From Sandarakinorhabdus glacialis (GTDB taxonomy: Bacteria; Pseudomonadota; Alphaproteobacteria; Sphingomonadales; Sphingomonadaceae): 64,000 nt of DNA. Made by a program: the position numbers and the translations under genes. Every line of letters begins with the position of its first letter. Within the stretch, counting starts at the first letter, position 1. Positions 15,699 to 19,405 of the stretch are shown in pieces. Below the pieces are notes generated by a model, which saw only the letters and a program-made list of their open reading frames with translations, did no database searches and was not told where the DNA came from. The stretch lies in contig NZ_BMJM01000001.1 in assembly GCF_014643455.1 (NCBI RefSeq), forward strand, positions 362,123-426,122, given 5' to 3'.

Positions 15699-15847
15699 CT
15701 GGCGTAACTCCGTAACGCATAAAGCCCCTCCTTCATAACAATCTTGCCGGAACGCGCAAGGACTGCATTGCCTTCGCGCAATATCGGAGAGGGGTGCAAA
15801 TCCCGTGGTTCGCGCCTATCTGGGAAGCATATCCCGAGGAGTTCACC

Positions 15848-16846
15848 GTGCCTGAGACCCGTCATACCCGCGTGCTGATCATTGGATCGGGCCCCGCCGG
15901 CTATACTGCGGCCATATATGCAGCGCGCGCCGCGATGGAGCCGGTGCTGATAGAGGGCCTGCAGCCGGGTGGCCAGCTGACCATCACCACCGAGGTCGAG
16001 AACTGGCCGGGCGATGTGACGGTGCAGGGGCCGAACCTGATGGTGCGGATGGCCGAGCAGGCGCGGCATGTCGGGGCCGAGCTGGTCAGCGACATCGTCA
16101 CGCGTATCGACACGTCGGCGCGGCCGTTCGTGGTCGAGACTGATTCCGGCCAGCGTTGGACCGCCGATACGGTGATCATCTGCACCGGGGCGCAGGCGCG
16201 CTGGCTGGGCATCCCGTCGGAGACGAAGTTTCGCGGCTTTGGCGTCTCGGCGTGCGCGACGTGCGACGGGTTCTTCTTTCGCGGCAAGACGGTGGTCGTT
16301 GTCGGCGGCGGCAATACCGCGGTCGAAGAGGCGATGTTCCTGACCAATTTCGCATCGAAGGTGCATCTCGTGCATCGCCGCGGCGAACTGCGCGCCGACA
16401 AGACCAACCAGAAGCGGTTGTTCGCCAATGCCAAGATCGAGACGCACTGGTATGCCGAGATTGCCGATGTGCTCGGCAGCGATGCGCCGGCGACGGTGAC
16501 CGGCGTGGTGCTGCGCGATACGCGCGACGGCCGGGTGCGCGAGCTGGCGTGCGACGGACTGTTCGTGGCGATCGGGCATGTGCCGGCGACGGAGCTGTTC
16601 GTTGGCCAGCTCGAGATGGACCATGAAGGCTATCTGGTGACGGCGCCCGATTCGACGGCGACGTCGGTGCCGGGGGTGTTTGCGGCGGGCGACGTGAAGG
16701 ACAAGGTCTATCGCCAGGCGGTGACCGCGGCGGGAATGGGGTGCATGGCGGCACTCGAGGCCGAGCGGTTCATCGCGCATGGCCTGCATGGGATGAACGG
16801 GGTGGATGAGGAGGCCTTGGTGGCTGACGAGGCTGCTGCGGCTTAG
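15848..16846 (+). CDS. trxB: Thioredoxin-disulfide reductase
   Basis: A 332-residue flavoenzyme that transfers electrons from NADPH to thioredoxin. FAD motif GSGPAGYTAAIYAARA is near residues 13-28, redox-active ACATCDG (Cys136 and Cys139) follows, NADPH motif GGGNTAVEEA is near 157, and the FAD-closing GVFAAGDVKD is near 285. The GTG at 15848 is chosen because GAGGAG stands 6 nt before it and the family N-terminus (TRVLIIGSGPAG) follows; an ATG at 15794 would add 18 non-homologous residues. The C-terminus has a short acidic Ala-rich tail. A LysR gene follows 23 nt later on the same strand. Confidence 0.96.
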   Translation: MPETRHTRVLIIGSGPAGYTAAIYAARAAMEPVLIEGLQPGGQLTITTEVENWPGDVTVQGPNLMVRMAEQARHVGAELVSDIVTRIDTSARPFVVETDSGQRWTADTVIICTGAQARWLGIPSETKFRGFGVSACATCDGFFFRGKTVVVVGGGNTAVEEAMFLTNFASKVHLVHRRGELRADKTNQKRLFANAKIETHWYAEIADVLGSDAPATVTGVVLRDTRDGRVRELACDGLFVAIGHVPATELFVGQLEMDHEGYLVTAPDSTATSVPGVFAAGDVKDKVYRQAVTAAGMGCMAALEAERFIAHGLHGMNGVDEEALVADEAAAA

Positions 16847-16869
16847 GAAGGGGAGAAGGGGGGAGCGAC

Positions 16870-17790
16870 GTGAACCTGGACTGGGAGAAGCTGCGGCTGT
16901 TCGAGCTGGTGGCCGAGGCGGGCAGCTTTACCGAGGCGGCGCGGCGGTTGCACATGAGCCAGCCGGCGCTGAGCCGGCAGATCGGTGCGCTCGAGGAGCA
17001 GATCGGCGCCAAGCTGTTCCACCGCCACGCGCGCGGGCTGGCGATGACGCACGAGGGCGAGCAGCTGCGCAGCGCGACGCACGACATGCAGGACCGGCTC
17101 GAGCGGACGCGGCAGGCGATCGATGCGTCGCGCGACCGGCCGACGGGCGAGATCCGGCTGACGACGACGGTGAGTTTCGGATCGACCTGGCTGGCGCGGC
17201 AGCTGGGCGATTTTCTCGATTTCTATCCCGATATCACCGTCAATCTGATGCTGTCGGATTATGACGTCGACCTGGCCAAGCGCGAGGCCGACGTGGCGAT
17301 CCGTTTCCACCCGCCGCTGCAATCGGAACTGGTCCAGAAATCTTTGGTCGGCATTCGGCATTTCCTGTGCGCGTCGAACGAGTATCTGGCGAAGCATGGC
17401 GTGCCGAAGACCGTCGACGACCTGCGCCAGCACCGCCTGATTGCCTATGGCGACACGGCGCCGGATTCGCTGAAAGGCATCAACTGGGCGCTCGAACTGG
17501 GCATCGAGGGCACGGCGCGGACGGCGGCACTGACCATCAACAACAGCCACGGCGTGCTGCAGGCGGTTGAATCGGGCGCCGGGATCGCGGCGTTGCCGAG
17601 CTATCTGATCCGCTTCTCAGGGCGGGTGCGGGTGGTCCTGCCCGAAGTCGACGGGCCGGTATTCCGGACGTTCTTCACCTATCCTGTTGAATTGCGGCGG
17701 TCGCTTCGCGTAGCGGCGTTGCGTGACTTTCTCGTCGAGCGGATGGTGCCGGCCAATCTCGACATCGATCGCTATGCGCTGAACGCATAG
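16870..17790 (+). CDS. LysR family transcriptional regulator
   Basis: A 306-residue regulator. The winged HTH at residues 4-62 reads LRLFELVAEAGSFTEAARRLHMSQPALSRQIGALEEQIGAKLF, followed by a linker helix and a periplasmic-binding-protein-like effector domain (LTTTVSFGSTWLARQ, DVAIRFHPP, GVLQAVESGAGIAALPSYL). The GTG at 16870 has GGGGGAG 6 nt upstream. Co-directional with trxB and possibly co-transcribed. The effector is unknown. A palindrome with LysR-site character (TTTGTGCACTGCACAAA) lies 12 nt after its stop, at the front of the candidate sRNA gene. Confidence 0.93.
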   Translation: MNLDWEKLRLFELVAEAGSFTEAARRLHMSQPALSRQIGALEEQIGAKLFHRHARGLAMTHEGEQLRSATHDMQDRLERTRQAIDASRDRPTGEIRLTTTVSFGSTWLARQLGDFLDFYPDITVNLMLSDYDVDLAKREADVAIRFHPPLQSELVQKSLVGIRHFLCASNEYLAKHGVPKTVDDLRQHRLIAYGDTAPDSLKGINWALELGIEGTARTAALTINNSHGVLQAVESGAGIAALPSYLIRFSGRVRVVLPEVDGPVFRTFFTYPVELRRSLRVAALRDFLVERMVPANLDIDRYALNA

Positions 17791-17802
17791 CTGGACTGCA
17801 AG

Positions 17803-17819
17803 TTTGTGCACTGCACAAA
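17803..17819. promoter_or_regulatory. Palindromic candidate operator TTTGTGCACTGCACAAA
   Basis: A perfect 8-bp inverted repeat around one central base. It overlaps the putative -35 (TGCACA, 17812-17817) of the promoter for the downstream RNA, whose -10 would be TAAATA at 17835-17840 (17-bp spacer). The overlap suggests control by a dimeric regulator, possibly the adjacent LysR protein (T-N11-A spacing is available). Confidence 0.45.
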
Positions 17820-17845
17820 GATGCTTCGGAACCGTAAATACAGTC

Positions 17846-18047
17846 CGTGGCCGTCGTTGACGGCGCTACGCTCGGATCGCCCACCCCCCCCGGGTGACCG
17901 AGTGTCAGGTTGCCGGTCGCTCCTCCCCCTTGAGGCCGGCAACCCGATCCGCACACTGCCCGCTCCACCCCCCCCCGGAGCCGCCAGTCCCTGCGGATCA
18001 CATATTCGGGCCGGGCCTTGCCAACGCGAGGCCCGGCCCATTTTTTT
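17846..18047 (+). ncRNA. Candidate small RNA with three C-rich stem-loops
   Basis: The 343-nt gap between the LysR gene and the tRNA contains no coding frame but three strong consecutive stem-loops and a terminator. SL1: ACGCTCGG 17868-17875 pairs with CCGAGTGT 17898-17905, inner stem CACCC/GGGTG, loop of C residues in a run of eight. SL2: GTTGCCGG 17909-17916 pairs with CCGGCAAC 17936-17943, with inner CCTC/GAGG around CCCCTT. SL3: GATCCGC 17946-17952 with GCGGATC 17993-17999, ACTG/CAGT, GCTCC/GGAGC around a loop of A plus nine C. All apical loops expose C-runs complementary to Shine-Dalgarno sequences, as in alphaproteobacterial sRNAs with anti-SD loops (the CcsR/cuckoo RNAs are one precedent). 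The exact 5' end is inferred from a weak promoter. A 6S RNA was considered but not supported. Confidence 0.55.
18008..18047 (+). terminator. Strong rho-independent terminator of the candidate sRNA
   Basis: GGGCCGGGCCT at 18008-18018 pairs perfectly with AGGCCCGGCCC at 18029-18039 (11 bp, 10-nt loop) and is followed by seven T at 18041-18047. Confidence 0.92.
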
Positions 18048-18133
18048 GGGCATTTGAGTGGGTCCTGGGCAGCAGCGCGGCGTTTACTCGTTGCCGGGCA
18101 GCATGAGGATGGGCTAGGCGGTCGCTACCGGCC

Positions 18134-18205
18134 GGGCCTGTAGCTCAATGGTAGAGCCGGCCGCTCATAACGGCTAGGTTGGGGGTTCGAGTCCCTCCGG
18201 GCCCA
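18134..18205 (+). tRNA. tRNA with CAT anticodon (elongator Met or Ile2)
   Basis: Cloverleaf with acceptor GGGCCTG/CGGGCCC (one G-T-type mismatch position), D-arm GCTC/GAGC, anticodon stem GGCCG/CGGCT around CTCATAA (anticodon CAT), T-arm GGGGG-TTCGAGT-CCCTC and discriminator A at 18205. The genomic sequence continues CCG, so the terminal CCA is not fully encoded. It lacks initiator-tRNA features (acceptor 1-72 is paired), so it is either elongator Met or lysidine-modified Ile2; the sequence alone does not settle which. Confidence 0.9.
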
Positions 18206-18215
18206 CCGGCGTGTT

Positions 18216-19313
18216 TTGAAGGAGCTGCTCCTGTCCGACTCCCGCCTGCCCGCCACCGCCCCGGGGGCGATTTCCGGTGACGCGGCGGCCGGCGGCGGGG
18301 CGGCGGTAGTATCGCCCGTCGCGGCAAACGATATTGCCGCCGGCGATGCCTTGCCGGGCAAGCCGAAGGGCAATCTGAAGCAGTGGATCGGTTTTGGGCT
18401 GGGCATTGTCGTCCTGTGCCTGGCGTTGTGGGGCCTCAAGATGATCGCGGGCCAGGTGACGCTGGCCGAGGTGATGGCCGACATTGAATCGACGCCGACG
18501 CACCTGCTGGTAGCGGCGTCGCTGTCGGCGGCGATGTCCTATGTGGTGCTCGTCGGTTACGACTGGCTGGCGACGAGGCACCTTGGCTATGACTTGCCGC
18601 TGCGGACGTTGGCGGCGGCGAGTTTCGGCAGTTTCACGATGAGCCATGCGCTCGGGCTGACGATGCTGACCGGTGGCAGCGTTCGGTATCGCACCTATAC
18701 GCGTGCCGGGGTAACGCCGGGCGATATCGCAATGATCATCCTGCTGTGCGGATGGACATTCTGGCTGAGCATCGTCGCCGTGGCAGGGGTCGGGCTGGTC
18801 ATTGCACCCGATCTGACCGAGGCTTTCAAGGACATCGTGCCGGGCGCGCATACCTGGGCGGGGATCATCCTGTTGACAGGGACGGTGTCGTATCTGCTGC
18901 TGGCGACCTTCTGGCGACGCGAGTTCCGGCTGTGGAGCTATCGCTTCTTCATTCCCGACGGGCGCGAGACGATGCTGCAGATCTTCATCGGGGCGGTCGA
19001 CCTGGCGTTCGCGGCGGGGGCGCTTTATCTGCTGCTGCCGGGGGCGGGAGCTCCGGATTTCCTGACCTTCCTGACGATTTATGCAGTGGCGATGGTGGCC
19101 GGGGCGCTGAGCCATGCGCCTGGCGGGCTGGGGGTGTTCGAGGCGGTGATATTGCTGCTGATGCCCGATGCGCCCAAAGCCGGCGTGCTGGCGGCGTTGG
19201 TGATGTTCCGGCTGATCTATACGTATATTCCGTTCCTGCTCGGGCTGGTGGTGATTGCGGCGGGGGAGTGGCTGGCGTTGCGGGCGAAGCGGCGGGCTCG
19301 GCGGGCGGTTTAG
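18216..19313 (+). CDS. UPF0104/lysylphosphatidylglycerol-synthase-type integral membrane protein
   Basis: A roughly 365-residue membrane protein of the YbhN/AglD-like (LPG_synthase_TM) family. About eight hydrophobic helices follow a polar Ala/Gly-rich N-terminus of about 50 residues. Typical landmarks are FGSFTMSHALGLTMLTGGSVRYRTY and GALSHAPGGLGVFEAVILLLMPD, the latter close to the family's HxPGGxGxxE motif. Relatives act in lipid modification or transport; the exact role is unknown. The TTG at 18216 begins only 10 nt after the tRNA and lacks a ribosome site. AAGGAG at 18219-18224 instead points to a CTG at 18231, giving an N-terminus MSDSRLPA. Confidence 0.85.
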   Translation: MKELLLSDSRLPATAPGAISGDAAAGGGAAVVSPVAANDIAAGDALPGKPKGNLKQWIGFGLGIVVLCLALWGLKMIAGQVTLAEVMADIESTPTHLLVAASLSAAMSYVVLVGYDWLATRHLGYDLPLRTLAAASFGSFTMSHALGLTMLTGGSVRYRTYTRAGVTPGDIAMIILLCGWTFWLSIVAVAGVGLVIAPDLTEAFKDIVPGAHTWAGIILLTGTVSYLLLATFWRREFRLWSYRFFIPDGRETMLQIFIGAVDLAFAAGALYLLLPGAGAPDFLTFLTIYAVAMVAGALSHAPGGLGVFEAVILLLMPDAPKAGVLAALVMFRLIYTYIPFLLGLVVIAAGEWLALRAKRRARRAV

Positions 19314-19317
19314 CAGG

Positions 19318-19405
19318 CTGGGGACAGGGCCTCCGGCGGCTGGGGCCTTGGCGCCAGGCCCCGATTTATTTGTGGCTGGGTCCCGGGTCAGGCTCGAGAT
19401 GACAC
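19318..19405 (+). repeat. Dispersed intergenic repeat, family 1
   Basis: Module A is GGGGCCT-TGGCGCC-AGGCCCC followed by GATTTATTTG; module B is CTGGGTCCCGGGTCAGGCTC then GAGATGACA. The same A-B order is seen at 43718-43792 and, inverted, at 3308-3440. It lies between the end of the membrane protein gene and the convergent MOSC gene, overlapping the MOSC stop region. Confidence 0.65.

Follow-up and report, generated by a model that had tools for sequence, protein, structure and literature searches.

In Agrobacterium, trxB and vtlR are followed by the tandem small RNA genes abcR1 and abcR2, and the LysR-type regulator VtlR (LsrB) is described as binding the promoters of abcR1, of vrsA and of atu1667, which encodes a small protein (PMC7486931). 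The consensus for this site that is used here, GCAT-N3-TG-N3-T, is taken from PMC8844928 and PMC7486931, and at S. meliloti abcR1 the LsrB box resides at -61 to -49 (PMC8844928). A further S. meliloti RNA, NfeR1, carries three hairpins with anti-Shine-Dalgarno (anti-SD) loops and is activated by LsrB (PMC10746234); NfeR1 and AbcR1/2 repress mRNAs by means of such loops acting on SD regions (PMC8844928, PMC10746234). LsrB contains the cysteines C144, C236, C244 and C273 (PMC11975290), and a thiol switch has been proposed for it. A 2025 study that compared few alphaproteobacteria called LsrB unique to Rhizobiales (PMC11975290).

A comparable arrangement is found in the 64,000-nucleotide stretch of Sandarakinorhabdus glacialis DNA analysed here (the window). 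In succession on its + strand are trxB (15794..16846), encoding thioredoxin-disulfide reductase (TIGR01292 395 bits, cut-off 343); lysR (16870..17790), encoding a regulator of the LsrB/VtlR type, as judged from its best PDB match and a tree, that is the probable activator of the sRNA; the sRNA element itself; and a tRNA gene that the initial annotation had noted 3′ of the element and that is identified here as tRNA-Met (CAT) (18134..18207), a conserved downstream neighbour. We consider it likely, with good confidence, that the element encodes an LsrB/VtlR-activated, multi-anti-SD sRNA that works like NfeR1 and AbcR within a trxB-lsrB/vtlR-sRNA-tRNA(Met) locus.

The sRNA gene occupies positions 17846..18047 (+), giving an RNA of about 202 nt. 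Its start was placed at 17846, 6 nt past the -10 box, because the distance from box to RNA is 61 nt at abcR. Near the 5′ end is a short hairpin, GCCGTC-GUU-GACGGC (17850..17864), which was absent from the initial annotation and precedes H1. Three larger stem-loops follow: H1 (17868..17905), with the C-rich loop ACCCCCCCC at 17883-17891; H2 (17908..17944), with the loop UCCUCCCCCUU at 17921-17931; and H3 (17946..17999), with the C-rich loop ACCCCCCCCC at 17967-17976. The three stem-loops with C-rich apical loops that had been proposed for this region are therefore present, and are more than chance would give, although the loop of H2, described as CCCC, is in fact the richer UCCUCCCCCUU. The gene closes with an intrinsic terminator (18008..18047), in which the seven T reported earlier are preceded by an A and by a stem of 14 bp, rather than 11 bp, with a 4-nt loop. 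Fold z-scores of the gene range from -8.7 to -9.2; the element as a whole folds at -115.4 kcal/mol (z = -9.2), an energy matched by 0/200 shuffles. The reverse strand also beats all of its 200 shuffles, less markedly than the + strand (z = -4.6), and a scan of 16300-19400 found no terminator-like site on the antisense strand of the element.

Comparison with relatives points to the same structure. In alignment A3, composed of 23 related sequences and fitted to its own structure, standard pairs fill 93.9% of cells, and changes on both sides of a pair, the compensatory stem changes whose presence in relatives had been proposed as a check, are found at 29/42 pairs. They affect 4/6 pairs in the 5′ hairpin (helix 1, with 100% of cells paired), 5/6 in H1 (helix 2), 8/9 in H2 (helices 3-5), 5/8 in the outer stem of H3 (helix 6) and 7/13 in the terminator (helix 7). 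The covariation score is 0.569; 500 shuffles give 0.201, and sliding the partners yields no more than 0.108. A sequence-only MAFFT alignment of 11 sequences contains both-side changes at 24/42 pairs. Given the fold z of -9.2, the strong terminator and these compensatory changes, there is very probably a genuine sRNA gene at 17846-18047 (+).

The stems of the RNA vary, and the loops are its constant part, staying C-rich. When 25 RNAs were folded, window included (the 23 model matches together with L241 and L242), 23 displayed at least three hairpin loops containing CCUCC or CCCCC, a result reached by 4/1000 shuffles; the exceptions are L043, with one such loop, and L093, with two. Five of the 25 fold with four C-rich loops because the terminator loop joins in. 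Many relatives have loops of the CUCC type, and 56/90 larger loops hold CUCC. The compensatory changes in structure, combined with the maintenance of C-rich loops, argue for the earlier proposal of an sRNA with anti-SD-like loops.

Throughout the genus this RNA is a feature of the same locus. Among 60 genomes, the window's own included, BLASTN detected nine same-genus relatives at E 7e-7 or better, all of which carry both the RNA and the downstream tRNA-Met (CAT); weaker matches, mostly short, were taken as chance. Searches for LysR and for the promoter element described below added the remaining genomes of the genus. The RNA lies 3′ of lysR, and shares its strand, in 24/24 genus genomes, 12 of which contain the window-type RNA and 12 a second, Sandarakinorhabdus-type RNA. 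It starts no more than about 250 nt after lysR in 23/24, the gap in G018 being about 0.95 kb, and in one of the 18/24 genomes in which the tRNA was looked for (G019) that gene is 3.4 kb from lysR. A covariance model with 11 training sequences recovers 23/25 sources at E up to 1e-7, including 12 members from outside the training set (E 1.7e-8 or better, some being near-copies of each other); at this threshold it misses two sources, L241 and L242, with RNAs that had been identified by eye. In a sample of 396 genomes of the order, model R1 gave 82 genomes with E up to 0.01, and scores above 50 bits came only from the 6 genus genomes within that sample. Scores of 24-28 bits represent noise level, since they also turn up at known loci in the wrong orientation, and seven loci with weaker matches that were inspected by eye comprise two with the syntenic RNA (L272, L273) and five without such an RNA. 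Two model matches in other genera of the family (G197 and G149; E 8.6e-8 and 1.4e-7) reside in a trxB-lysR-sRNA-tRNA-Met arrangement, and the RNAs there have two C-rich hairpins each.

Upstream of the sRNA is a bipartite element with the form ATGC-N7-GCATRGC-N12-TTGTGC-N3-GCAC. Its upstream half, the inverted repeat ATGC-N7-GCATAGC (17774..17791, +), overlaps the lysR stop codon and was absent from the initial annotation; its downstream half, with the palindrome core TTGTGCACTGCACAA (17804..17818, +), overlaps the -35 region. Each half constitutes a T-N11-A motif, the general LysR box (in the upstream half at 17775-17787, about -71 to -59), and their centres, near -65 and -35, are separated by 30 bp; these are the positions at which LysR proteins usually have their recognition and activation sites. 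Within this region the segment GCATAGCTGGACT (17785..17797, +) matches the published LsrB/VtlR box, for which the two strands of the 64-kb window together contain 3 matches, and falls at -61 to -49 if the RNA starts at 17846. The TGCACA-17-TAAATA promoter and the palindrome TTTGTGCACTGCACAAA of the initial annotation are both present. The -10 box TAAATA (17835..17840, +) was recognised from its sequence and was not reported by the consensus scan, which found no sigma-70 promoter on either strand of 16300-19400; the poor -35 sequence would fit an activated promoter. The LysR-type control suggested earlier thus gains support, in that the neighbouring LysR is the LsrB/VtlR orthologue and the published box is present in the promoter at the published distance.

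From GCATRGC onward, the element occurs with zero mismatch at exactly 3 sites in the 3.3-Mb genome: before the window sRNA, before a second copy of that gene and before a 44-aa ORF. When 3 mismatches are allowed, the 18 matches in the same genome are hardly above the 10 of a reversed control. At no more than 1 mismatch, it is present in 21/24 genus genomes and its reversed control in 1/24; the genomes that lack it at that threshold (G005, G010 and G020) have, by eye, a diverged element in its place. Of the 28 element sites so listed in the genus, 22 precede the sRNA and 5 a small ORF of 44-49 aa with the ending RLFHAL; the remaining site (L091) lies where a large gene begins and looks like chance. 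The full published box is contained in 12/22 sRNA sites and 2/5 small-ORF sites, and its GCAT-N3-TG part in 21/22 and 4/5, respectively. In the order, 17/396 genomes match the long bipartite pattern with no more than 2 mismatches, 6 of them belonging to the genus and 1 (G028) having a Pacificimonas-type locus. A collection described as 84,980 species, the scan of which may omit entries very similar to the genome of the window, contains 37 loci with the longer element. Inspection by eye revealed the three-hairpin sRNA at 18 of these (one cut by a contig end), a small ORF of the RLFHAL type at 2, a C-rich RNA of another shape at 2 (L103 and, in Pacificimonas pallii, L125), other small ORFs at 10 in Rhizobium, Neorhizobium and other Rhizobiales, and another small ORF at 1 in Oceanibium; 2 loci end before anything readable, and L120 and L129 look like chance matches.

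The second copy comprises the whole sRNA gene and its promoter element (G000:C7:172921-173173, -, equivalent to L038:8919-9186) and had not been noted in the initial annotation. It is about 96-97% identical to the first over 269 bp, and the genome contains these two copies only. Differences between them occupy 7/60 positions upstream in the promoter and 3/209 in the transcript (Fisher p 0.0014). By eye, the second copy adjoins the end of a TonB-receptor-like ORF and so has a different gene context. The 44-aa ORF that follows the bipartite element at its third site (L054:1605-1736, +, on G000:C2) encodes a product without a Pfam or NCBIfam match, with relatives of 45-49 aa that have RLFHAL as their C-terminus, and a hairpin seems, by eye, to precede the SD of this ORF. 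The small ORFs behind the element in Rhizobiales (L099, L100, L102, L112, L114, L116, L119, L123, L124 and L132) are of at least two kinds, the GGFIGRAIAVFGAA and MTARFRPIH types; the two that were tested had no match in NCBIfam, and these ORFs are candidates for LsrB-regulated small proteins. In Oceanibium sediminis (L128:2787-2828), the element stands before a 53-aa ORF that matches the NCBIfam RSP_7527 family.

The best PDB match of the window LysR is A. tumefaciens LsrB (9HH1, E 6.6e-76), and the next is at 2.1e-27. In 6/6 Rhizobium and Neorhizobium genomes (6 of 8 such genomes were compared), the window protein has one best match at 41-42% identity (E 7e-74 to 5e-76), the next matches being at E 4e-36 to 6e-32. 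A tree, the rows of which are tblastn segments rather than full genes, places the best matches from Sphingomonadales and Rhizobium apart from the second-best paralogues, with support of only 85/92. On these sequence comparisons, the window LysR is an orthologue of rhizobial LsrB/VtlR. At the positions of C144, C236, C244 and C273 of LsrB, the window protein has V, V, A and T; it is missing the conserved redox pair C144-C273 and has one other cysteine, C167. With the four LsrB cysteines not kept, the proposed thiol switch could not operate in the same way; this loss lowers the case for redox sensing by the window LysR, as read from its sequence, and not that for orthology.

All six of the Rhizobium and Neorhizobium best-match loci, like the window, have trxB directly 5′ of lysR. 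Behind this pair a tandem AbcR is found in 5/6; at L157 no AbcR exceeds the cut-off. The box was found before 6/10 AbcR genes, and in all 6 the GCAT lies 61 nt ahead of the start of the RNA model; a few further box matches elsewhere in these six loci look like chance. LysR orthologues were detected at E up to 1e-60 in 50/60 relatives and were absent at that threshold from 8/12 family members of other genera (G024, G025, G027, G029, G031, G032, G033 and G034), so that the regulator may, to judge from these searches, have been lost in part of the family. G026 contains the orthologue and has no such RNA in the 360 nt behind it. From other families of the order, 19 stretches following the orthologue were inspected by eye: 14 have a C-rich, RNA-like segment that differs in shape, and the other 5 (L225, L229, L230, L232 and L234) have none; trxB lies just 5′ of lysR in 13/19, and no Rfam match on the scanned stretches passes its cut-off. 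Several of the C-rich stretches behind trxB-lysR (L221, L224, L227, L228, L231, L235 and L238) share, by eye, CCUCCCUA near the 3′ end, and most of these have only sub-threshold matches to SorX/suhB. Possibly, they constitute a further undescribed AbcR-like family.

The element is best explained as a trans-acting sRNA gene, situated toward the downstream end of the conserved trxB-lsrB/vtlR-sRNA-tRNA(Met) locus. In the proposed mechanism, the LysR protein from the adjacent upstream gene would bind the T-N11-A sites of the bipartite element near -65 and -35 and recruit RNA polymerase to a weak sigma-70 promoter, activating the sRNA. The RNA of about 202 nt that would then be transcribed would end at the intrinsic terminator, and its three stems would hold the loops, of the CCUCC/CCCCC type, open. 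These loops could pair redundantly with G-rich SD regions and block translation; the global repression suggested in the initial annotation is a putative role of the RNA. Hfq, which the genome encodes (110.7 bits), probably assists the pairing. The same LysR may also control the second sRNA copy and the 44-aa protein gene, both of which have the same element.

The genome contains 22 matches to GGGGGAGG-N3-9-ATG, as against 7 in a reversed control; because few of them open gene-length frames, no mRNA is named as a target. In a first pairing-energy test, covering 44/45 genes of the window as called by a crude script, translation starts had a mean of -11.6 kcal/mol versus -8.9 and -8.5, a difference that is circular because the starts were picked by SD strength. 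With first-ATG starts of the window genes, a less biased choice, the difference was not significant against upstream sequence (p 0.24) and was weak against coding sequence (p 0.04), and reversed loops scored equally (p 0.49). That starts were not significantly preferred over upstream sequence in this window test, and that the window loops are almost pure C, would be compatible with an RNA that is real and LsrB-controlled but has loops that mainly bind protein or titrate, as a sponge or by Hfq titration, instead of masking SD sequences. We regard this as unlikely: many relatives have CUCC-type loops (the 56/90 larger loops mentioned above), and in NfeR1 and AbcR1, the nearest RNAs that have been characterised, loops of this type act on SD regions (PMC8844928, PMC10746234). 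A stronger competitor, still distinctly less probable than the anti-SD sRNA proposed above, is that the RNA is an AbcR (ar15) orthologue that has diverged past recognition and retains AbcR targets, the ABC transporters. It shares with AbcR its place behind trxB-lysR and the spacing of its box, and the C-rich RNAs of other shapes at this position in members of the order could be intermediates; opposed to this are the absence of ar15 among its matches up to E 10 and a different anatomy, with three loop motifs, three hairpins and a separate terminator.

Two further readings dispense with an RNA gene of this kind. The strong palindromes and the 96-97% copy elsewhere in the genome might be expected of a DNA-level palindromic repeat or small mobile element, but only two copies exist in the genome, one copy is 3′ of lysR in 24/24 genus genomes, the terminator is oriented, and the stems change in a compensatory manner around constrained loops; we therefore consider this most improbable. 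Much the same low probability attaches to the element encoding a small protein, in an ORF of 83 aa (+) or 93 aa (-). Both frames are open and give tblastn matches in other species, to E 4e-6 for the plus frame and 2e-10 for the minus frame. The matches of the 83-aa frame, though, cover shifting parts and fade with distance, and the minus frame opposes the terminator, most of its matches falling at the end where it runs across the conserved promoter element. The coding ORFs were rejected on these grounds.

Among the matches listed in the open-access literature, none describes the window RNA or LsrB/VtlR in Sphingomonadales, and the RNA, though conserved, is apparently undescribed. The locus places an LsrB orthologue, its box, and sRNA and small-protein sites in Sphingomonadales. 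Tentatively, and with somewhat less than even confidence, trxB-lsrB-sRNA can be viewed as an ancient alphaproteobacterial module in which regulator, box and locus are fixed and the body of the RNA turns over or multiplies its anti-SD hairpins, with two in two other genera of the family, three in the genus and four in some Sandarakinorhabdus-type relatives. The sphingomonad regulator would have lost the cysteine switch, leaving the same anti-SD output wired to a different signal. The locus provides a natural comparison, in which regulator position and promoter are the same, the anti-SD RNA is different and the cysteine switch is gone, and a testable division between what is conserved (promoter and anti-SD output) and what is free (stems, hairpin number and input signal). 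At least one covariance family, recognised by no Rfam model at cut-off, can be built from the sRNA.

Among described RNAs, several resemble this one in part. At gathering thresholds, Rfam identifies only two tRNAs in the window, and relaxed searching (up to E 10) gives 20 weak matches to the window RNA, none over its cut-off. The CcsR/cuckoo RNAs to which the initial annotation had likened it are not the best comparison, as the CcsR1 score of 18.5 lies below the cut-off (65.3), and NfeR1 (ar14) and AbcR1 (ar15) are better models. CcsR1-4 of Rhodobacter (cuckoo/UPSM RNAs) do share C-rich, anti-SD-type loops with the window RNA, but they have a different neighbouring gene and are under RpoH control. 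The 6C RNA (RF01066) likewise presents C-runs in hairpin loops (26.7 bits, E 0.15, below its cut-off of 47); it has two hairpins and is actinobacterial. SuhB of Sphingopyxis granuli, which was compared by description only, is a Sphingomonadales sRNA of 61 nt that binds the thnR mRNA 5′ UTR with Hfq and lowers translation, and is described as conserved in Sphingopyxis (PMC6563040). At two positions near the sRNA locus in relatives, L041:1784-1934 (-) and L044:5380-5530 (+), matches of 60.7 and 56.3 bits to the Caulobacter sRNA CC2171 (cut-off 75) represent possible unannotated relatives of that RNA.

The closest likenesses are with the rhizobial RNAs and their regulon. NfeR1, or alpha-r14 (RF02344), consists, like the window RNA, of three hairpins with C-rich anti-SD loops and highly variable stems, and its upstream TGCA-N6-GCAT, T-N11-A box, the site by which LsrB activates it, is reminiscent of the window promoter (PMC10746234). 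The ar14 model, with a cut-off of 58.8, scores the window at 23.9 bits (E 0.016) and the best relative scanned, L241, at 49.5 bits (E 3.8e-6), both below that value. The window RNA differs from NfeR1 in its extra 5′ hairpin, its separate terminator, its position adjoining lsrB and its length (about 202 nt versus 115 nt), and in that its loops, two of which are almost pure C, are not the identical CCUCCUCCC of NfeR1. With AbcR1/AbcR2, or alpha-r15 (RF02345; gathering score 40), it shares its place in trxB-lsrB(vtlR)-sRNA, a box 61 nt before the RNA and, as proposed here, the anti-SD action of known members, but it has three anti-SD hairpins rather than two motifs and is single, not tandem, at its locus. 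The VtlR/LsrB regulon described for Agrobacterium and Brucella, in which a LysR protein, encoded beside trxB in Agrobacterium, controls both sRNAs and small-protein genes (PMC7486931), has its counterpart here in Sphingomonadales, with a different small protein and a regulator in which all four cysteines of A. tumefaciens LsrB are replaced. The sRNA passes neither the ar14 nor the ar15 model, and is closest to ar14 by its architecture and to ar15 by its place and promoter.
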